Virus record (IMG/VR): IMGVR_UViG_3300031772_000206
Span: 1-28,923 of that record
Direction: 5' to 3' (one strand)
Source of the DNA: a virus
Length of the DNA stretch: 28,923 nucleotides
Below are positions 15,607-28,923 of this stretch, piece after piece. The notes under the pieces are model-generated. The model saw only the letters and a program-made list of their open reading frames with translations, made no database searches and was not told the origin of the DNA. The translations under genes were made by a program, and so were the position numbers. Numbering within the stretch: position 1 is the stretch's first letter; each line of letters opens with the position of its first letter.

Positions 15607-17943
15607 TCAGGCTCCGGGGATCACAGGTATTGCACTGCGTACGCAGTTCGGATGTTCAGTCGGGTTCGCGAGGTAGTCAGCGATCGGCCACACCTGGCCA
15701 TTCACTGCCTCGCATTCCGCGCAGGAGTTCGGTCCTTCGTCATCGAGGATCTCGACCTCGGCTACATCGAGTGCCTGCCAGTTCTCCGCGGCGCCGCGGT
15801 TGTAGGCGGCTGCGAGCTCCGCGTTCGCGATCATGGCCGCTCGCGCCTCGTCGTCGAGGATCGCGTTGAGCGCGGTCTGTAGATCGGATTCGCTCTGCCC
15901 GCCGGCGATCGCGTCGCGCAGCGCGGTCTCGATCCGCGAGCGCGTCACGGCGTCGAGCGCCATGTCGGATTCGACGTCCACCCACATGGCCTGCGCCTCA
16001 TCCCACCGACGCCCGATCAGCATGCCCGCGCGTTGCGATGCGTAGTCCATGCCGCGACTGCCGAGTTGCCCGTAGCCCGTGACCTCGGCGGAATCGTCCA
16101 CCCCCGCCTCGTGCGCCTGCCACAGGACGCGAACGAGCATGCGCCACTCATCGACCGTCGGCGGTGGCACGCTGGCGCCGGCGAGTGCACTGGCCTTCTC
16201 GGCAGTCGAGAAGTGCTTGATCGCGGCCTGCGCGAGGTGCTGGCCTATGTGGCGGACGATCGCGGCAGCCGCCGCCGTGAGATCCGGCAGCACCTTCCCT
16301 GCGCGCTCCGAAGTGTTCCACCGCTTGATCGTCTCCCGCAGGTGGGCGGTGGGCGCCTTGAACATCGCCGAACCCATACCCGAGGCGAGACCCTTGCGCA
16401 GCACGCCTTGGAGCCAGGCGGGCACTGCATCGGTGCGGAAGTCTTTCGGGGGGCGCCCGGACGCCTCAGCCTTGCGAACGACGGTCTCCCAGCGCCGGAG
16501 GTCCTCGCGGATTGCCTTGCCGAGGACCGTAGGCTGGACCCGCTGCCCTTCAGGCACGAAGGGCGCGAGTTGCGGAGGCACGACGCCAGCCGGGGGCGGT
16601 GGCGGGACCTTCGGCGGCTCAACGGTGCCGAGCGGATCGAAGGGCTGCGCAGGGAGGCCGATGACGAAGTAATGTTTCTGCGCAACGTCCGCCTCGTCGA
16701 TGCTGTCGCCTTCCTCGGAGACCATGTCCTCCCAGGCCACTAGACCCGACTTGTACCGATCAAGGCGGCTCTGCCGGCGCGCTGCGGCCAATGCCTCCTG
16801 CTCGATCTTCCACTGCAATTGATGCCCGGGGAACCCGCCAGCTGCGAGCATTTCGCCGGCGAGGGTTTGGAGCGCGAAGAGGTGCGGGCGCATCCCGCGC
16901 AGTGCCGCCCACGCGGCGAGGGCGTCGGCCGTCGAGTAGTTGACCTGCGAGACCATGGCCGTGGGGTCGACGCCGAAGGCATTGAAGATCGTCCGGATGA
17001 GCAACTCTTCGTGTTCCTTGTCGATGCGCGGGGGCGGCGTGGGGAAGTACTTGCTCGCGCCGCCGAGCACTGCTTGCAATCGGGTATCGGCACCCGGCTG
17101 CTTCATCCGCTCATCGAGCCATGCCTGATAGTTCTGCAGCTTCTCAAGCGTCTCGATCCCGTCAGGCGCGGGCACCAGACCAGCAGGGGTCCCACCCTTC
17201 TGCCACCGATAGAGATCGCGCAGGAGTTTGTGGAAGTTCACCGCGGCTCGCGCCGCTACCTGCTCGGTGGGCGAGAAGCCGCGCACCGAGTAGACGCGCC
17301 GGCGCTGCGGGCGGTACCACAGTTGCTGCGTGGTGAAGCGCTTGGGGCCGCCGTTGGAGTTGCTGGTCGATTGCTCGAAAGCGATCCCCGGCGGCTCGGG
17401 GATCCGGCCGCCGGGGTCGAGCTTAGGCGTGATGGTGGCGCCATCGATCACCTCGAGGCGCACCAGTCGCCCGCCTTGGTAGTAGGGGAACAGGCAGAGG
17501 TTGTCGCAGACCAGGATCTCCTCGATCGCCATCGCAGCCCAAGCGTCCCAGTCGAGTTTGCCGTCCGGCTTGAGGAGTAGTGTGTCGGCTTTCGGATCGG
17601 GATCGCTGCCGTCATCGACCGAGAGCGACCAATCCATGCCCTTGATCGTGCCGACGATCGCTTCGATGGCCAGACGCAGGAGATCCGCGTTGTCCGCAAG
17701 CAGCCGCAGATCACGGAAAGGCAGGCGATTCCACTCGCCCCCGCCACCGAACGCCACCTCGCGAGCATCCGCGATCTCGCGGTAATCGCGCGATGCGAGC
17801 GACGGGGGGAAAGCCTTGGCAAGGGCTCCGAAGGTGGCGAGGGTCTCGGGTCGGACATTCGGCGCCACTTCGGGCGCAAGGACAATCGCGGTCTGGACCG
17901 GGGCCGGGGTCGTTCGCGTGAAGAGACGATCGAGCAGGCTCAT
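15607..17943 (-). CDS. Portal protein fused to a MuF-like (SPP1 gp7 family) domain (778 aa)
   Basis: ATG at 17943 overlaps the terminase stop (ATGA) and has an AAGGAA site 9 bases upstream; earlier in-frame starts lie inside the terminase gene. Residues about 1-440 are portal-like: NADLLRLAIEAIVGTIKGMD, an ILVCDNLCLFPYYQGGRL stretch, and later FNAFGVDPTAMVSQVNYST, which is characteristic of portal C-terminal parts. A Pro-rich linker follows (PPPPPAGVVPPQLAPF). The last about 200 residues are helical and end in CAECEAVNGQVWP and a NPTEHPNCVRS segment, the Cys/His pattern of MuF minor head proteins. The portal forms the DNA gate, and MuF assists head assembly or is injected. Fusion means equal copy number of both. 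Confidence 0.82.
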   Translation of the reverse strand: MSLLDRLFTRTTPAPVQTAIVLAPEVAPNVRPETLATFGALAKAFPPSLASRDYREIADAREVAFGGGGEWNRLPFRDLRLLADNADLLRLAIEAIVGTIKGMDWSLSVDDGSDPDPKADTLLLKPDGKLDWDAWAAMAIEEILVCDNLCLFPYYQGGRLVRLEVIDGATITPKLDPGGRIPEPPGIAFEQSTSNSNGGPKRFTTQQLWYRPQRRRVYSVRGFSPTEQVAARAAVNFHKLLRDLYRWQKGGTPAGLVPAPDGIETLEKLQNYQAWLDERMKQPGADTRLQAVLGGASKYFPTPPPRIDKEHEELLIRTIFNAFGVDPTAMVSQVNYSTADALAAWAALRGMRPHLFALQTLAGEMLAAGGFPGHQLQWKIEQEALAAARRQSRLDRYKSGLVAWEDMVSEEGDSIDEADVAQKHYFVIGLPAQPFDPLGTVEPPKVPPPPPAGVVPPQLAPFVPEGQRVQPTVLGKAIREDLRRWETVVRKAEASGRPPKDFRTDAVPAWLQGVLRKGLASGMGSAMFKAPTAHLRETIKRWNTSERAGKVLPDLTAAAAAIVRHIGQHLAQAAIKHFSTAEKASALAGASVPPPTVDEWRMLVRVLWQAHEAGVDDSAEVTGYGQLGSRGMDYASQRAGMLIGRRWDEAQAMWVDVESDMALDAVTRSRIETALRDAIAGGQSESDLQTALNAILDDEARAAMIANAELAAAYNRGAAENWQALDVAEVEILDDEGPNSCAECEAVNGQVWPIADYLANPTEHPNCVRSAIPVIPGA

Positions 17944-21676: not shown

Positions 21677-22993
21677 TCACTCCTTCGGCTTCCGCCAGAT
21701 CGCCATGTCGTGCACCTCCGTGACCTCCAGGCGCAGTACATCCAGATCGGCCTTCACTCCCGGCCAGTTGTAGTCGTGGAAGACTACGGCACCCCCGACC
21801 TTGACCTTTGGTTTGAGGCGGAGGAAGACCTTCAAAGTCTCGCCCTCGGCGTGGTCGCCGTCGAGGAAGACCAGATCCAAACTCTCGTCCGGGACCTTGC
21901 CGATCGCATCGGCAAAGCTCCTGCGGATCGGGACCACGGTTCGTCCAAGCACACCCAGTTTCGCCAGGTTCTCGAGGAAGTCCGGGTAGACGCCATCGAG
22001 ATCCACAGTGGCATCGTGGTGGAACGTCGCTCGCTCATCGGGTGATCCCTCGAAATGGTCGACCGCATAGAGGCGGATCCCACGGTCGGAAGCGGTGGCA
22101 GCCATCCCCAGGAGGGCCGTGGATCGCCCTTTCCATGAGCCGAGCTCCAGGATCGTGCCACCCTTTGGCAGGAACCCCACCTCCTCGACCAGTACCGCGG
22201 CCTGCTCGTCCGTCAGCCAGCCTTGAATGAGTTTCCAGTCGTCGGTGATCTCGATGTGGTCGTGCTCGCGCTTCTGGAACCAACGCGCGATGTCCCCGGT
22301 CCAGCCCTTGACGCCGTAGTGGGTGAGCACGATGCTCGGATCGAGCCAGACACGCCCACCGATCGCTTTCCATAGTCTGCAAAAGCCATAATCCTCGCCC
22401 ACCAACTCTCCGCCCTCGACGATCGTGTTGAACAGACCATAGAGATGACGGCCAATGATCTTCTGGTCACTGGTCTTCCCGCACTTCAATTCCGGGTATG
22501 CCGCGAACATTCGCTCGAATACGCTGCGGTGCAACATCGCGAAGCCAACATTGCCGTAGAGCAGTTCCACGCAGCCGCAGTGATGACAAATAGTCATCTG
22601 CTGTTGAACATCAGGCGGGAACATCACGGCATATTCTTCGTTGTCGGTCTTCTTCCGGTAGGCGCCGCAGACCCAGTCCTTTTGTACCTCGAGCATCCGC
22701 TCCACACTGTCGGGATAGAACCTCAAATCGTCGTCGACGCACAGCATGTGACTGCAGTTCGAATCCATGAACCAGCTCGCCAGAACGTTGCGCGCCCGCA
22801 TCACGATCGAGTCGTGCGGGTCGATTCTAAGCTCGGCATGGAGACCCTTCGCATCGAGCACGGTCATCGTCTTGAGGACCGAGATCATGGTCTCGTTCCG
22901 TGGACTGCCGGTCATGCAGGGCATGGCGATGAACAGCCCGGTGAACTTGTGGCCGCCGGGTTCGAGAGACGTGTGAGCGAGGTTGACGCTCAC
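21677..22993 (-). CDS. Glycosyltransferase-methyltransferase fusion (438 aa)
   Basis: The start at 22993 overlaps the preceding stop (ATGA). Residues about 1-230 look like a GT-A fold glycosyltransferase (family 2-like): LFIAMPCMTGSPRNETMISV, a DxD at MLCVDDDL (D87-D89) for metal and nucleotide sugar, and GEDYGFC (E199 to C205) as the likely acceptor/base motif. Residues about 255-438 are a class I SAM-dependent methyltransferase: ILELGSWKGRSTALLG (motif I, 281-296), the VDHFEGS acidic loop, and DLVFLDGDHAEGET (D378, H381), as in Methyltransf_24. Together they could add a sugar and methylate it, or act on DNA or cell-surface glycans. The target cannot be read from sequence. Confidence 0.82.
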   Translation of the reverse strand: MSVNLAHTSLEPGGHKFTGLFIAMPCMTGSPRNETMISVLKTMTVLDAKGLHAELRIDPHDSIVMRARNVLASWFMDSNCSHMLCVDDDLRFYPDSVERMLEVQKDWVCGAYRKKTDNEEYAVMFPPDVQQQMTICHHCGCVELLYGNVGFAMLHRSVFERMFAAYPELKCGKTSDQKIIGRHLYGLFNTIVEGGELVGEDYGFCRLWKAIGGRVWLDPSIVLTHYGVKGWTGDIARWFQKREHDHIEITDDWKLIQGWLTDEQAAVLVEEVGFLPKGGTILELGSWKGRSTALLGMAATASDRGIRLYAVDHFEGSPDERATFHHDATVDLDGVYPDFLENLAKLGVLGRTVVPIRRSFADAIGKVPDESLDLVFLDGDHAEGETLKVFLRLKPKVKVGGAVVFHDYNWPGVKADLDVLRLEVTEVHDMAIWRKPKE

Positions 22994-23761: not shown

Positions 23762-24550
23762 TCACTTCCCCAGGTCCGCCGCATGTCCGGCGGGCGCTCG
23801 GCTCGTCACTGCCGACTGCCAGTGGTGCTTCACGTGCGGCTCCCAGCAGTCGTTGCAGATCAGGGTCGGACAGAGGTTGCACTGCATGGTCGCCGGCGCC
23901 TTCCGGCAGGCGGCGCACTTGATCGTCGGGTTCGTGCCGCGCAGTTTCGTGCAGGTCGCCGGCGGATCGGCTTTCGGCTTCTGCGGCATGGCTGTCTTCG
24001 GTTTGAGCCAGGTCGGCGGGTCGATCAGCAGTTCGTCCTCAAGGCCGTACTGGAACCTGCAGGCCTCAGCCGGGTGCTTGTCGGTGACGTCGAGCCCCTG
24101 CGCCACGGTCGTGAAGAATAGGCGAGTGGACTCCTTGCCGACGGAATAAACCGCTCGGCCATCTTTCGATGCTCGCACGCGCAACTTGCCGCCGTGCAGA
24201 TCGAGCTTCGCTTTGTCGCGAGGCTTTAGGCCCAGACGCTTCGCAACGCCCGCTGCGAGGTTCACCGCGATCTCGAGGTGCCCACAACTGCTTCGGCAGG
24301 AGATCGTGACATCGGTGGACTTCTGTGGCGGGGGCAGCGCGGGCTTGGCGCGCGGCGGTTTCTTGGCCAGCGGCTCGAGCGTGATGCGCGGAGGCGCAGT
24401 CTCGGGTTTGTGAAGAAGACCGCTCTCGGGCAGGCCAAGGCCATCGGCGAGCCTCCACTCCTCTGCGAGTGCTTCGGCATAGTCGAGAACGTCATCGAGC
24501 AGCTTGTGCGCAATGCGGCGCAGCATCTGGCTCTCAAGCGCCATGGTCAT
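23762..24550 (-). CDS. Protein with C-terminal B-box-like zinc finger (262 aa)
   Basis: ATG at 24550 is about 7 bases after a GGGAGGTG site; a second ATG at 24544 is possible. The first 60 residues are helical, starting TMALESQMLRRIAHKLLDDV. A Pro/Lys-rich linker follows, then a beta-rich part (ISCRSSCGHLEIAVNLAAGV, then KAKLDLHGGKLRVRASKDG) which may be AbrB-like or a novel fold. After a second Pro/Lys linker comes a zinc-binding stretch with ligands C212, C215, C224, C227, C232, C235, H239 and H242 or H243, spaced as in B-box fingers. These are best known from eukaryotic TRIM proteins but also occur in bacteria. Protein or DNA interaction is likely; the exact role is unknown. Confidence 0.7.
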   Translation of the reverse strand: MTMALESQMLRRIAHKLLDDVLDYAEALAEEWRLADGLGLPESGLLHKPETAPPRITLEPLAKKPPRAKPALPPPQKSTDVTISCRSSCGHLEIAVNLAAGVAKRLGLKPRDKAKLDLHGGKLRVRASKDGRAVYSVGKESTRLFFTTVAQGLDVTDKHPAEACRFQYGLEDELLIDPPTWLKPKTAMPQKPKADPPATCTKLRGTNPTIKCAACRKAPATMQCNLCPTLICNDCWEPHVKHHWQSAVTSRAPAGHAADLGK

Positions 24551-24896
24551 GGGGGGCACCTCCCGGGCGCTGCGCGAGGATGGACAGCGCCAGATCCCAG
24601 TCCTTGAACCTCCACAGGTAGGCTTCCTGGCCGCACACGAGCAGCGTGGCGTACCAGTGGAGCTGCTCTTCGGTGAACGCACGCTCGTCGTTCTTGAGCT
24701 CAGCGAAGATCGTCCGCCGCTGGCGTAGGTGGCACATCACGAGATCGAGGAAACCCGCAGGCGAGTGACGGCTGTCGTGCGTAAAATAGATCGGGTCCCA
24801 GCCCATTCGCTTCGCCGCGTTGACGAACTGCGCTTGGAAGTCAGCCTCGTCGGCGAAGAAGGGGAGGCGATCGAAGACCACGGCGTTGCGCCTCAT
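24534..24896 (-). CDS. VRR-NUC domain nuclease (120 aa)
   Basis: ATG at 24896 overlaps the previous stop (ATGA). The protein is the stand-alone VRR-NUC form common in phages: ADEADFQAQFVNAAKRMGW (helix with conserved E and Q), a GFLDLVM segment with D51, an IFAELKND segment with E66 and K68 of the PD-(D/E)xK core, and TEEQLHWYATL with Q78. It ends with EAYLWRFKDWD. These nucleases are thought to act on branched DNA, as Holliday-junction resolvases or flap nucleases in recombination and replication. The surrounding replication and recombination genes agree. Length is typical for phage members. Confidence 0.85.
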   Translation of the reverse strand: MRRNAVVFDRLPFFADEADFQAQFVNAAKRMGWDPIYFTHDSRHSPAGFLDLVMCHLRQRRTIFAELKNDERAFTEEQLHWYATLLVCGQEAYLWRFKDWDLALSILAQRPGGAPHDHGA

Positions 24897-25291
24897 ACCA
24901 TCACCCTCGGGAACAGCCGCCGCTCCACCGGCTCCCCCGGCAGCGTCACCGCGCGAATCTTCCGCGCCTTCGCGAAGAGTCGCGTCGCCTGACGCTCAGC
25001 GAGCTGGGCCGCGCGCTCCCTCTCGGCTGGCGTCGCTCGGCTCGCGAGTTTGTACCCGTGGCCCGCAGAGATCACTGGCTCCTCACCCTGCAGCAGAATC
25101 TCGAGCGCCTCACGCACACGACGCGCGGCGGTCGCCCGCTTCCAACAGAGACCTAGGCTGGCGAAGCTGTGATCGAGCACGCGCTCGGTGAGCTCGTCAC
25201 GAGTCAACGAGGTGGTGCAGGACCACAGGCCGGATAGTTCGGCCAGCAGGAACAGCGCGACCCAGGCGTTGTCATCAGACCGCTGGTGCAT
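24893..25291 (-). CDS. Putative winged-helix DNA-binding protein (132 aa)
   Basis: ATG at 25291 lies 7 bases after a very strong AAGGAGG site, so longer upstream starts are rejected. The first 45 residues are helical (AWVALFLLAELSGLWSCTTS, RDELTERVLDHSF). After a helix (RRVREALEILLQGEEPV) comes ISAGHGYKLA, an 'xxGxGYxLA' wing that closes many phage winged-helix domains. The last 45 residues are charged helix (PAERERAAQLAERQATRLFA). It may regulate or assist the initiator gene, which it overlaps by 17 bases. The fold is inferred from pattern; the specific role is not known. Confidence 0.55.
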   Translation of the reverse strand: MHQRSDDNAWVALFLLAELSGLWSCTTSLTRDELTERVLDHSFASLGLCWKRATAARRVREALEILLQGEEPVISAGHGYKLASRATPAERERAAQLAERQATRLFAKARKIRAVTLPGEPVERRLFPRVMV

Positions 25292-26153
25292 CGGGCGCCT
25301 CCTTCCTATCGGCTTCACGGGCTTTCCGCGGGTCCACGGGGTTGCGGGCTTTCTCCCGTTGCGCGCGTCGTTGCACGTCATCTTTGAGCCAAGGTAAGAA
25401 CCGCGGCCAGGGTGGCGGAGTTTTCTGCGCCATGTGGACCTCGACGTAGTCGCGCCAGCGACCGTGGGGTTTTTCCGCCTCGCCGAAGTCACGCTCGTCC
25501 TCCGGGTGCCAGGGGTAGGCGTTGGCCTCCGGCTCAGAGACCTCGGCCGGCGGGTCGCCATCGGGTGGGAGTTCGGGCTCCTCTGGATAGGGTATCGAAG
25601 GGGTATCCGCCGTCGTCGCCGCGTCGCCGTCTACGGCTACGGTCTCAGGTGCGGTAGCAGGTGCGGTAGCAGGTGCAGGTGCGGTACGGGGAATTCCTGG
25701 AGTCCGGGAAAGGGTATCGGAAGGGTACCGATACCCTTTCGATAGCCATTCAGAGGGGTATGACAGGCCAAGCTCATCAAGGAGACCCCGGGCGATTTGG
25801 AGGTGCCCGAGCGCTGCTAGATGGCGGTGCACGGCGACCAGGTGCTTCGAGTTCACCGCTGGCTTGAATGTCGGCTCGAACCGCAGGGCGTTCCGGATGA
25901 GGATGTAGCCGGTCTCGAGGCGGACGTAGTCCTGGGTCACAAGCTCATTCAAGTAGCGCTTGAGGTTTTCTTCTGTCACCCGCATCCGCGAGGAGGTCAG
26001 CGGCGGGTACCAGCGGAACAGACCCGTGGGTCCGCACTCCTGGGAGAACCGCAGGAAGAACCACAGCCGCTGGGCCTCGGGGGAAAGTGCCTGGAAGTCG
26101 GGGTCGTCGAGCAGCCGGCAGTAGGCGGAGCGGTAATCGTCAGAGCTTTGCAT
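25275..26153 (-). CDS. Putative replication initiator, with repeats inside the gene (292 aa)
   Basis: The ATG at 26153 overlaps the end of the HNH gene. Residues 1-110 look like a winged-helix DNA-binding part: YRSAYCRLLDDPDFQALSPE, LWFFLRFSQECGPTGLFRWY, then the recognition-like TSSRMRVTEENLKRYLNELV and DYVRLETGYILIRNALRF. This opening is seen in phage replisome organiser-like proteins. Residues about 140-230 are a flexible Ala/Pro/Thr/Glu linker coded by the repeat-rich DNA. The C-terminus (PPPWPRFLPWLKDDVQRRAQ) is basic and may bind a helicase or loader. Initiators of lambda-like phages often contain the origin inside the gene. No helicase or loader gene is in the window. Confidence 0.65.
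   Translation of the reverse strand: MQSSDDYRSAYCRLLDDPDFQALSPEAQRLWFFLRFSQECGPTGLFRWYPPLTSSRMRVTEENLKRYLNELVTQDYVRLETGYILIRNALRFEPTFKPAVNSKHLVAVHRHLAALGHLQIARGLLDELGLSYPSEWLSKGYRYPSDTLSRTPGIPRTAPAPATAPATAPETVAVDGDAATTADTPSIPYPEEPELPPDGDPPAEVSEPEANAYPWHPEDERDFGEAEKPHGRWRDYVEVHMAQKTPPPWPRFLPWLKDDVQRRAQREKARNPVDPRKAREADRKEAPDAPAV
25588..25762. repeat. Iteron-like repeat cluster, candidate replication origin
   Basis: The motif GGGTATC occurs at 25590, 25601 and 25712 on the plus strand, once on the minus strand (25736-25728), and in altered form at 25723 (GGGTACC) and 25756 (GGGTATG). AAAGGGTATCGG (25709-25720) and CCGATACCCTTT (25728-25739) form a perfect 12-bp hairpin around a 7-base loop. 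All lie within the initiator gene linker. No AT-rich unwinding region stands out nearby. Confidence 0.5.
25646..25687. repeat. 12-bp tandem repeat inside the initiator gene
   Basis: CAGGTGCGGTAG occurs twice in tandem (25646-25657, 25658-25669), followed by a half unit CAGGTG and a near copy CAGGTGCGGTAC (25676-25687). It encodes the Ala/Pro/Thr linker of the initiator-like protein. It lies between the two groups of GGGTATC copies, so it may be part of an origin, or may be only a coding repeat that expanded by slippage. Confidence 0.6.
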
Positions 26154-26532
26154 GGATCAACCTCGAGAGCGCCATGGCTTCATCTCCCCTGTTGCCAACC
26201 GCCTGGATCCTCGAGAACGCTTTGGCCAGCACCTCCAAGTCAAACGACCAAAAACCCGCTCGCCTCAGCGCCCGCAAGAGAGCGGCTTCGGATCTCGGTC
26301 GTTCGTCGTACTCGAGTTGGTGACAGCGCTCACAGAGCGTCACTAGCGACTCGTCCGACTGCTCCCAAGGTTCAATGTCCTTCTCGTACCAGCGATGGTG
26401 AACGGCGAGCGTCGAAATATCATCGCCACAAAGAGCGCAGGCCCAGCCGTCTCGTTCGAGAATCTCAAGCCGCCTCCTCTGCCATCTGGGATCGCGCAAC
26501 TTTTTTCCGTATGGTGTAGGACGCTCGATCAC
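26140..26532 (-). CDS. HNH endonuclease-like protein (130 aa)
   Basis: The start is a GTG at 26532, 6 bases after an AAGGGG site. The protein begins MIERPTPYGKKLRDPRWQRR and has the full HNH pattern: RDGWACALCGDD (first CxxC), AVHHRWYEKD (catalytic His pair region), and SLVTLCERCHQLEYDE (second CxxC with H). The C-terminal helices (ALLRALRRAGFWSFDLEVLA) are of unknown function. HNH proteins act as nicking or cutting nucleases, often in recombination, packaging or homing. Here it sits among replication genes, away from the terminase, so a recombination or defence role is more likely than packaging. Family details were not verified. Confidence 0.8.
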   Translation of the reverse strand: MIERPTPYGKKLRDPRWQRRRLEILERDGWACALCGDDISTLAVHHRWYEKDIEPWEQSDESLVTLCERCHQLEYDERPRSEAALLRALRRAGFWSFDLEVLAKAFSRIQAVGNRGDEAMALSRLIHAKL

Positions 26533-26535
26533 CTC

Positions 26536-26751
26536 TCACCCCTTCCTGTGCTTGTCGCTGTTCGGGCAGGTTGCGAAGTGACTCCGGTATCCCGCGCGCA
26601 CCTCGTACTCCGGCTGGGGACCATGGCCGACGTCCACCATGCGGCCGGTGGCCACCAGCACCTTCAGCGGCTCGGGATCACACGGCATTGGGCGGCCGGC
26701 CTTGGTGACGACCCAGATGATCGGCGCGCCGCACGAGGAGCAGGTGGTCAT
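26536..26751 (-). CDS. Small zinc-ribbon-like protein (71 aa)
   Basis: ATG at 26751 overlaps the preceding stop (ATGA). The protein opens with MTTCSSCGAPIIWVVTKAGR, has PCDPEP and a beta-rich middle (LKVLVATGRMVDVGHG), and ends SHFATCPNSDKHRK. The CxxC at residues 4-7 together with C24 and a late C/H pair suggest a zinc ribbon. Similar small phage proteins start 'CxxCGAPIxWxxTxxGKxMPxD' and have unknown function. It might bind nucleic acid or a protein partner. Length is usual for that group. Confidence 0.7.
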   Translation of the reverse strand: MTTCSSCGAPIIWVVTKAGRPMPCDPEPLKVLVATGRMVDVGHGPQPEYEVRAGYRSHFATCPNSDKHRKG

Positions 26752-26882
26752 GATGCGACCTCCACGAAGAGTGGCGCCGTCCCTTCGATCCTGCGGCGCG
26801 CCACCTTGACGTACTCCGCGTTCAGGTCAATGCCGATGAAATCCCGCCCGCCGATCTGGGAGAGTGACGTCAGTGCGTGCAT
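26748..26882 (-). pseudogene. C-terminal tail of a DNA methyltransferase (44 aa)
   Basis: An ATG at 26882 sits two bases after the SbcC-like gene's stop. The 44 residues read MHALTSLSQIGGRDFIGIDL and NAEYVKVARRRIEGTAPLFV, then end. 'GRDFIGIDLNxEYxxxARRRI' is the standard end of phage N4/N6 DNA methyltransferases, just behind the FxGSGTT SAM-binding motif. That motif and the DPPY catalytic motif are absent, and upstream sequence in this frame is only the shadow of the ATPase gene. It is most likely a remnant left by a deletion next to the ATPase gene, still translated in principle. A functional small protein is less likely. Confidence 0.55.
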
Positions 26883-26884
26883 TC

Positions 26885-28923
26885 TCAGGCTCTCACTTCG
26901 ACGTGGCCGTTTTCCACCCACAGAACGGCGTCCGCTTGAGACCAGAGTTCCTCCTGTTGGGCTATGAAGATGAGCTGCGAGGCGCCCGCCATTCCCCGCG
27001 CCTTCCGCAACATCTGCAGGTAACGGTTCGCATTGTCGGGGTCCAACGCTCCGGCGGTTTCGTCCCTCCATAGGGTGCTGTAGTGCCGGCCCGAATGCTT
27101 GCCGACGTAGATCGCCAGCGCGAGGCTGATAGCTTCGCTCGCGATCGTCTTCTCGCCGCCCGAGAGGCTGTCCACCGCCCCCTCGCGGCCGCGGTCGTGG
27201 TCGATTACCTGGACGTCGAAGACCTCCTTCTGGCTCTTGCCGTCTGCCTTTGGCGCCTGCGTCACGAACCGGAGCTCGAAGCGCGGCCCGAAGCACGAGG
27301 TGAGCAGCTCGTTGGTCAGGGCGGAAAGTTCGGGACCAGCCGCATCAATTTCCAAGGCCTGTATCCCGTCGCGGCCGAAGCCGCGCTCGAGCATTCCCCA
27401 CTCGCCGAGGTCGCCAGCGAGCTTCTCGGCGGCCGCGTGATTCAGCGCCACCCTCTGCCCAAGTTCCGCACGGCGCTTGGCTTCCGCTTCAGCCTGGGCG
27501 ATCGCTCGCACGAGCCCCTGAAGATCGGCCTGGAGCTCCTCCACCGTTGCCCGCAGCTCCTGTACCTGCCGAGCGACTAGGTCGATCTCGGCCTTGATCC
27601 CCGCCGCATCGGTGGCCACCATCCCCTCGAGGTCGAGGGCGAGGGCGGTGCGCTTGGTGGCCAGCGCCTCGATCTGCTCGCGGTACTCCTGCTCACGGGC
27701 TGTCAGGGCGATGAGCGTTTCCTCAAGTTGTTCTTGAAGTTCCGCCGCGCGCTTCACGGCAGCCTGAGCAACTGGCACGGCACCCGCCAAGGGGTCGAGC
27801 CGCTGCACCTCCGCCTCGGCCCCCTGGAGCGCCACCAGGCCGTCCTTGACCGCGACCTCGGCCCGGTCTACCGCGTGCTGGTACTCGGGCAGTGCGGCCT
27901 CGAGGACCTGGACGTCAGACAGTTCCCCCTCGAGGACCCCGATCGCCGCCTTGGCGCCGCGGGCATCGGCAAGGAGGGGGCAGGTTGCAGCCAGCGGCGA
28001 CGCAGTTACTCCAGACACGTTCCCATCCGGGCCGGTGTCCACTCGCTGCCAGTAATCTCGGACAGTACACGGCACTTCGCCGAGCAACCCGGCCTGGCGC
28101 TGGGCAGCCGCCAGGCGCGTCCGCACGCTCCCCGCCTTGCCGGTCTCCCGGGTCTTGGCGAGGAGGGTCTCGCGGGCCTCCCGAAGCCTTGTGTTCCATT
28201 CCCGCAGATCGTCCTGCGCCTGGGTGCGGTGTCCCCGGGCTGGCGGCAGGGCGGTAGCCGCCGCCTCATACTCCGGCAGTCGCTCAGCCTCGCGCTCCGC
28301 CTCGAGGATCCCGGCTTGGGTCCTGTCATGGGCGCGGATTTGCTCCAGTGGTAGTGCCATGAGTTTGCCATTTAAGCTGAGGCTCTGTTGATCGATCCCG
28401 GAGAGTTCGCGCTGTTTTCCAGCGCGTTGCTTCTCTGCCTCGACCGCCAGGGCGTGCTGCGTCTGCAGCTCGGCGTGGCGTTGGCGTGCGGCCTCGAGGT
28501 CCGCCGCGCTGGCCTTGATCTCCGCCTCGATGCCGGAGCGCTCGATGGTGAGATTTTCGGTATTGTCGATCTCCCCGTCTGGATGCGCATCATCCCAGAG
28601 CACTCCCGCTGCGGGCTCGTGCCTGGGCCTGGCCCCGAGACGCACCAACTCCTCCTCAGCCTCTGCCAGTTGACCGCGTAGGCGCTCGAGCTGCAACTCA
28701 CCGGTCTTGCCCCTGGCGCGCGCGGCCTCGGAGAGCCGCTGCAGGCCACCAGTGTCAAGAATTTCCGCTAGCAGGTCCTTGCGTTCCGCCTTCGAGAGGT
28801 CGAGGAAGCTGCCGCGCTTCGTCTGACAGGAGAGCGCCGCGGAGAGCATGAGGCGGGCGCTGCCGAAGCGGCGCTCCACCTCCGCGTTGTACTCGCGCAC
28901 CTTGCCGCTGGTGAGAGGCTGGC
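26885..28923 (-). CDS. SbcC/Rad50-like ATPase, N-terminal part outside window
   Basis: The frame is open to the right edge and continues before the GTG at 28900, so the start and Walker A lie outside. The visible 679 or so residues show the end of the N-terminal ATPase lobe (ERRFGSARLMLSAALSCQTK, SKAERKDLLAEILDTGG), two long coiled coils, and between them C278 and C307 (numbered from 28900) with a VPC...TCPLLADA arrangement like a modified zinc hook. The C-terminal lobe has the ABC signature SLSGGEK (about 578-584), Walker B LWRDETAGALD (D613, E614) and a later LIFIAQQEEL. It would work with an SbcD-like nuclease in DNA end processing, probably encoded just to the right. It was not confirmed. 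Confidence 0.85.
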   Translation of the reverse strand, partial: QPLTSGKVREYNAEVERRFGSARLMLSAALSCQTKRGSFLDLSKAERKDLLAEILDTGGLQRLSEAARARGKTGELQLERLRGQLAEAEEELVRLGARPRHEPAAGVLWDDAHPDGEIDNTENLTIERSGIEAEIKASAADLEAARQRHAELQTQHALAVEAEKQRAGKQRELSGIDQQSLSLNGKLMALPLEQIRAHDRTQAGILEAEREAERLPEYEAAATALPPARGHRTQAQDDLREWNTRLREARETLLAKTRETGKAGSVRTRLAAAQRQAGLLGEVPCTVRDYWQRVDTGPDGNVSGVTASPLAATCPLLADARGAKAAIGVLEGELSDVQVLEAALPEYQHAVDRAEVAVKDGLVALQGAEAEVQRLDPLAGAVPVAQAAVKRAAELQEQLEETLIALTAREQEYREQIEALATKRTALALDLEGMVATDAAGIKAEIDLVARQVQELRATVEELQADLQGLVRAIAQAEAEAKRRAELGQRVALNHAAAEKLAGDLGEWGMLERGFGRDGIQALEIDAAGPELSALTNELLTSCFGPRFELRFVTQAPKADGKSQKEVFDVQVIDHDRGREGAVDSLSGGEKTIASEAISLALAIYVGKHSGRHYSTLWRDETAGALDPDNANRYLQMLRKARGMAGASQLIFIAQQEELWSQADAVLWVENGHVEVRA

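Follow-up and report, generated by a model that had tools for sequence, protein, structure and literature searches.

A candidate phage replication origin formed by 11-bp iterons nested in the linker codons of an initiator-like gene

The placement of a replication origin within the gene of its own initiator is a known principle, described for lambda O, RepA_N plasmids, and repC, and to our knowledge origins are unmapped in most phages. The lambda origin lies in the middle of gene O and comprises 4–6 iterons and an adjacent AT-rich region (PMC7466680). In RepA_N plasmids, the iterons are semi-palindromic (PMC7145576) and are bound by the winged-helix N-terminal domain of an initiator that is DnaD-like in both its N- and C-terminal domains (PMC5703833, PMC7145576). 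The Rep boxes of pSK41 lie centrally within rep, and the linker they encode is dispensable (PMC5703833). In repABC plasmids, oriV is found inside repC, without identified iterons and with an essential AT-rich region (PMC3155836). Plasmid iterons are phased with the DNA helix (PMC5043065).

The window analyzed here is the whole 28,923-nt stretch of IMG/VR record IMGVR_UViG_3300031772_000206, a 28.9-kb phage record with portal, terminase, tape-measure, and SbcC-like genes, for which capsid and portal yielded only distant matches to phages of Arthrobacter, Brevundimonas, Thermoanaerobacterium, and Alicyclobacillus. Its minus strand includes a gene for a 292-aa initiator-like protein (positions 25275–26153). 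AlphaFold predicts a winged helix at residues ~4–90 (pLDDT about 90), helices up to ~137, low confidence for residues 140–184 and beyond, with a putatively disordered linker at pLDDT <50, and small C-terminal helices. The codons of the predicted winged-helix DNA-binding domain (residues 2–90) span positions 25884–26150 (minus strand), and the domain could be structurally aligned to RepA_N initiators (4pql, 5kbj, 4pt7, and 4pta; VIA-align Z 7.3–6.8), which were its nearest full-domain fold matches. The best of these alignments (4pql: Z 7.3, 84 residues, rmsd 3.1) is to be read with the caution that Z values under 8 may reflect a common arrangement. Sequence comparison placed the protein weakly, over its whole length, in phrog_3171 “replication initiation protein” (E 7.6e-4, residues 12–284). 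This was the only PHROG family at E ≤ 0.1, O families being unmatched, and no Pfam family was found at the same threshold, including the RepA_N domain (PF06970). A PDB sequence search likewise returned nothing, with profile matches at chance level, while the best named matches among the predicted viral proteins of BFVD were a “Replisome organizer” (E 4.5e-4) and a “Replication initiator protein” (E 5.8e-4).

Within the codons of the predicted disordered linker, where the first-pass annotation had already placed repeats in a winged-helix initiator-like protein, we identified five arrayed copies of an 11-bp unit with consensus GAAAGGGTATC (positions 25708–25762), distributed over both strands in an exact 11-bp register that this annotation did not include. 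In coding-strand order (gene positions are 0-based), the array opens with AGAGGGGTATG (25752–25762, plus strand, gene position 391), a GGGTATG copy with four mismatches that is in register with the next copies and was retained as weak only. It continues with GAATGGCTATC (25741–25751, minus strand, gene position 402, frame 0; two mismatches, GGCTATC), an exact GAAAGGGTATC (25730–25740, minus strand, gene position 413, frame 2), GGAAGGGTACC (25719–25729, plus strand, gene position 424, frame 1; two mismatches, GGGTACC), and a second exact GAAAGGGTATC (25708–25718, plus strand, gene position 435, frame 0). A distal pair follows, consisting of GAAGGGGTATC (25597–25607, plus strand, gene position 546; one mismatch) and, 11 bp from it, the perfect 4-3-4 palindrome GATAGGGTATC (25586–25596, plus strand, gene position 557). 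The units at 402 and 413 share one orientation, and those at 391, 424, 435, 546, and 557 have the opposite one. As 11 is not divisible by 3, every codon frame is represented among the copies, and the peptide contains no matching repeat; an exact register spread over three frames and both strands thus means that no peptide repeat explains the array.

Two of the facing iterons form a perfect hairpin (25708–25740), and the single-strand fold of this region is strong (z −3.84), compared to z 0.34 for the distal pair. The hairpin had been reported with 12-bp arms; its perfection held, but the arms are 13 bp long (25708–25720 and 25728–25740, with a 7-nt loop). Also recovered were a GGGTATC-type cluster, with four exact copies besides the three degenerate forms above, and, between the main array and the distal pair, a 12-bp tandem tract CAGGTGCGGTAG (25646–25686), with copies of CAGGTGCGGTA at 25646, 25658, and 25676. 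The lag-12 excess of this tract was reached by none of 100 synonymous shuffles.

Both the motif and the full unit were specific to the initiator gene. GGGTATC occurs at 25590, 25601, and 25712 on the plus strand and at 25730 on the minus strand, with a single further copy in the record, at 17082, against a chance expectation of 1.42 for all 28.9 kb. When the gene was shuffled synonymously with its protein held fixed, GGGTATC appeared 0.53 times per gene on average, and none of 2000 shuffles reached the observed 4. At ≤1 mismatch, all 4 record copies of GAAAGGGTATC lie inside the initiator gene, and the reversed control pattern gave none. As had been remarked at first pass, no AT-rich segment lies near the array; this is right in absolute terms, although the relatively weak duplex at 25726–25765 still ranks in the lowest 0.5% of the record's 40-bp windows by stability. 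The DnaA-box pattern used had no match in the record (a near-match with 2 mismatches lies at 25582), and GC skew, flat and noisy in both the window and the 38.5-kb record of a relative (L003), gave no support as an origin marker.

Close relatives of the window gene are few. Among 2.9 million viral contigs, we found just two distinct homologues of its subfamily, L003 and L004; a search of 84,980 species genomes for the subfamily returned none, tblastn with the window protein gave no match in 50,697 cultured-phage records, and the peptide query SKGYRKGIERV... gave no useful match. At the same linker place, L003 (54% protein identity) carries GAATGGGCATC-GAGAGGGTATC-GAAAGGGTATC-GAAGGGCCATC, and L004 (44% identity) carries a different 11-bp tandem unit, GAAGGGCCTCG-GAAGGCCCTGC-GAAGGCCCTTC. 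The expectation that relatives would keep these repeats in position despite protein change was thus borne out with the same unit in L003 and with another 11-bp unit in L004, so that place and register hold while the unit changes. Near-exact sites were likewise concentrated inside the initiator gene for L003 (2/2), L018 (3/3), L011 (2/2), and L015 (5/6), and 6- or 12-bp tracts occupy the place of the window's 12-bp tract in relatives.

The genomic surroundings of the array are also partly shared with L003. Window positions 24534–28900 correspond to a common replication block, including SbcC (58%), the initiator (54%), VRR-NUC (50%), and a small gene between them, and the structural genes are unmatched save for one weak 36% match over 97 residues, which suggests module exchange. 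The small gene (24893–25306, minus strand) overlaps the 3′ end of the initiator gene, is also found in L003 (36% over the longer ORF), and has no PHROG match; its product could be an additional protein of the replication block that binds DNA. Elsewhere in the window, a 438-aa gene (21677–22993, minus strand) unites phrog_1574 (function unknown, E 4.7e-21) with a methyltransferase domain of the Methyltransf_24/TylF type, and a 306-aa protein (23762–24682, minus strand) shows, close to its C-terminus, a weak, sub-threshold match to a B-box zinc finger (E 3.9e-4), which is unusual for a phage.

Next, we evaluated how widely such arrays occur among phage initiators. The two-unit pattern GGGTATCGRAAGGGTA matched 14 viral stretches, a number not above our rough estimate for chance. 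Only the concentration in initiator genes is telling: 8 of these matches fall within genes encoding winged-helix replication proteins, from phages of 33–66% GC. The family has hundreds of members, 559 of them in the viral contigs alone. We then considered 43 dereplicated initiators gathered by protein similarity only, with protein queries that included the pattern-found genes. A lag-11 repeat beyond synonymous shuffles was detected at P < 0.05 in 30 of these 43 genes, the P values being per gene and non-independent since the compared genes share ancestry. In a scan of lags, 60% of genes stood out at lag 11, 40–44% at lags 6, 12, and 18, and 23% at lag 22, compared to 0–7% at all other lags. 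The 6/12-bp tract beside the array was constrained at the DNA level in 44% of genes; our guess is that it may be an opening element or a spacer. In an earlier set that included the pattern-found genes, 23 of 32 initiators had lag-11 repeats, compared to 0.9% of the 213 neighboring ORFs.

Further sites, obtained by scanning each locus with its own array and leaving that query array out of the count, reached 1.64/kb within the gene, compared to 0.14/kb outside it and 0.125 for shuffled arrays. They cluster in two places of the gene, with 44 of 50 at nt 160–240 or 380–500, and the window array (nt 391–446) occupies the second. Relatives with the same kind of array belong to phrog_1701, 6251, and 3171 (“DnaD-like helicase loader / replisome organizer”), and one, L014, matched phrog_678 “replication initiation O-like” (1.9e-12). 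Another, L016, aligned to the RepA_N fold over 88 residues with Z 8.8, tied with CRP-type folds; RepA_N initiators were also its top Foldseek rows, yet at E 0.037. A DnaC-like gene follows the initiator in L022 and L025, the latter being the PhiR5_2 initiator region, from a relative able to replicate in laboratory E. coli K-12. In Acinetobacter phage A3926.3 (L024:3955–3987), two more iteron copies, CCCCTTCAAAG, lie just upstream of the initiator gene and are possibly an autoregulatory operator.

Separately, arrays of GATACCC / TCGAAAGGGTATCGAAAGGG were observed in AT-rich viral contigs, in stretches that are apparently non-coding (L006:2806–2997, L007:1945–2136, L008:1060–1110, L009:3930–3975, and L019:5460–5620). 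In L006 and L019, a small gene (MPRKSRRINSYTKPK.. / MPKKRRKLNVTITTP..) that does not resemble an initiator lies downstream of the arrays, and the arrays possibly represent an intergenic origin or an unrelated motif.

Across the wider family, the unit is a 4-3-4 semi-palindrome, as in GAAA-GGG-TTTC, GATA-GGG-TATC, GAAG-GGG-CTTC, and CAAG-CCC-CTTG. Perfect arms occurred in 14 of the 45 best units, compared to 3.9% of shuffles, and at least 3 paired positions in 41 of 45, compared to about 50% of shuffles, an excess that is suggestive rather than a strict test given the choice of the best rotation (for shuffles too) and shared ancestry. Sites of one gene match each other better than they match sites across types. 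In many relatives, outside the window subfamily, which has linker sites only, the first site cluster coincides with codons that encode the beginning of helix 3. In the L016 model, helix 3 is predicted at residues 58–70, and the repeat at nt 167–189 covers its first turns, a placement with which the alignment of L016 to the window model agrees. Examples of such helix codons are GAAAGGGTTTC-GAAAGGGTTT, encoding E-R-V-S-K-G-F, and GAAGGGGCTTC-(A/T)AAGGGGCTTC, encoding E-G-A-S-K-G-L. For 27 of 41 initiators, the helix-codon repeat was in excess of synonymous shuffles, compared to 2 of 41 when a control region was taken, and AGG was used for 25 of 47 arginines in the helix-codon region and for 58 of 710 elsewhere, which together indicate that the DNA is constrained beyond the protein. 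Helix-codon and linker sites also tend toward the same type within a gene. From these sequence patterns, we tentatively suggest that in the broad phage initiator family the recognition-helix codons might be a working copy of the site that the helix binds, a possibility we judge somewhat less likely than not. If true, both the specificity of the protein and the sequence of its site would be set by the same nucleotides; initiator and origin would thereby be locked to each other, and new replicon specificities could arise through linked changes.

Taken together, we consider it likely that the cluster is the iteron array of a phage replication origin that lies inside the initiator gene, in the codons for the linker. 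The N-terminal winged helix would bind the 11-bp semi-palindromic units, one per helical turn, and a repeat of this length would place the bound proteins on the same side of the helix, where they could stack and wrap or bend the DNA. DNA opening may then occur in or beside the array, after which the initiator or a partner would recruit the helicase; no helicase or helicase-loader (P/DnaC-like) gene was recognized among the window ORFs with the families scanned. Since the linker peptide is under little constraint of its own, its codons are free to carry such sites.

Initiator-binding arrays often serve as operators too, and the array might instead be an autoregulatory operator, bound by the initiator or by the small neighboring protein (24893–25306, minus strand) and controlling transcription of the replication genes rather than the start of replication. 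The presence of this small gene beside the initiator in L003 as well (36% over the longer ORF) and the upstream copies in the Acinetobacter phage fit such a role, which we nevertheless judge unlikely because the sites lie deep within the coding region, with a site less than 200 bp upstream of the initiator gene at only 2 of the 43 loci. The array may also have been recognized by another protein, as a centromere-like partition site or a packaging site. Repeat arrays do serve in partition, and a ParB-like gene adjoins the initiator in one relative, L022; however, the same position is kept in initiator genes across phages with unrelated neighbors, and no partition gene was recognized beside the window array with the families scanned, leaving this as the least probable of the alternatives considered.

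Two further explanations bear on the repeats themselves, and we regard both as very improbable. An mRNA hairpin, acting as an attenuator, a translational pause, or a processing site, would account for the strong single-strand folds of the arrays in the window, L003 (z −3.57), and L004 (z −3.21). However, the pairing geometry differs in each of the three, the distal pair does not fold, and neither the 11-bp register nor the head-to-tail pairs of most relatives would be needed for a hairpin, which facing semi-palindromic DNA sites yield for free. Similarly, emergence of the repeats without function, by chance or by slippage expansion of low-complexity linker codons, would be in keeping with a predicted disordered linker and with a 6/12-bp tract that encodes low-complexity peptide (PATA, EQEQ, TDTD). 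This explanation is disfavored by a unit length that is not a multiple of 3, by copies in three frames and two orientations, by the synonymous-shuffle and control-region tests, and by the L004 unit, which has changed yet remains in register.

If the origin reading is right, a rule read from sequence would place the origin to within about 100 bp, and give the site sequence for each, in numerous phages and prophages of several bacterial groups whose initiators are DnaD/O-like. A large phage family, for the most part unstudied, would then join lambda and the plasmids of Gram-positive bacteria in carrying an origin inside the initiator gene, and the connection of recognition helix to site could be tested directly. 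Within the open-access literature (subscription papers lay outside the search), we found no report of such an 11-bp semi-palindromic iteron family, and no description of how its iterons are spread among DnaD/O-like initiators of phages or of recognition-helix codons that contain sites. A text search for the iteron letters gave no phage-origin paper among the matches listed. For phrog_1701, 6251, and 3171, which are annotation families, an origin of this kind was likewise not found described in the searchable literature.

Compared to known systems, the comparison with lambda-type phages made at first pass was apt, and RepA_N plasmids, which it did not name, are an equally close parallel. The window shares with lambdoid O/ori-lambda a phage setting and repeats in the middle of the initiator gene, but its 11-bp units run in continuous register, whereas lambda iterons are longer, at about 18–20 bp. 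It also has no AT-rich region, and its protein is unmatched to O families, though that of L014 matches phrog_678. With RepA_N theta plasmids (pSK41, pTZ2162) and PLE RepA, it shares a predicted winged-helix N-terminus and semi-palindromic repeats central in the replication gene; unlike these, its unit is 11 bp long with a GGG center instead of the RepA_N A-tract, its protein has no Pfam RepA_N match at E ≤ 0.1, and its setting is a tailed phage. repABC plasmids provide a further case of an origin within the initiator coding sequence, as proposed here for the window, but one in which no iterons were found. By analogy, the array would most likely work like that of lambda O and, for binding and layout, like that of pSK41 Rep.
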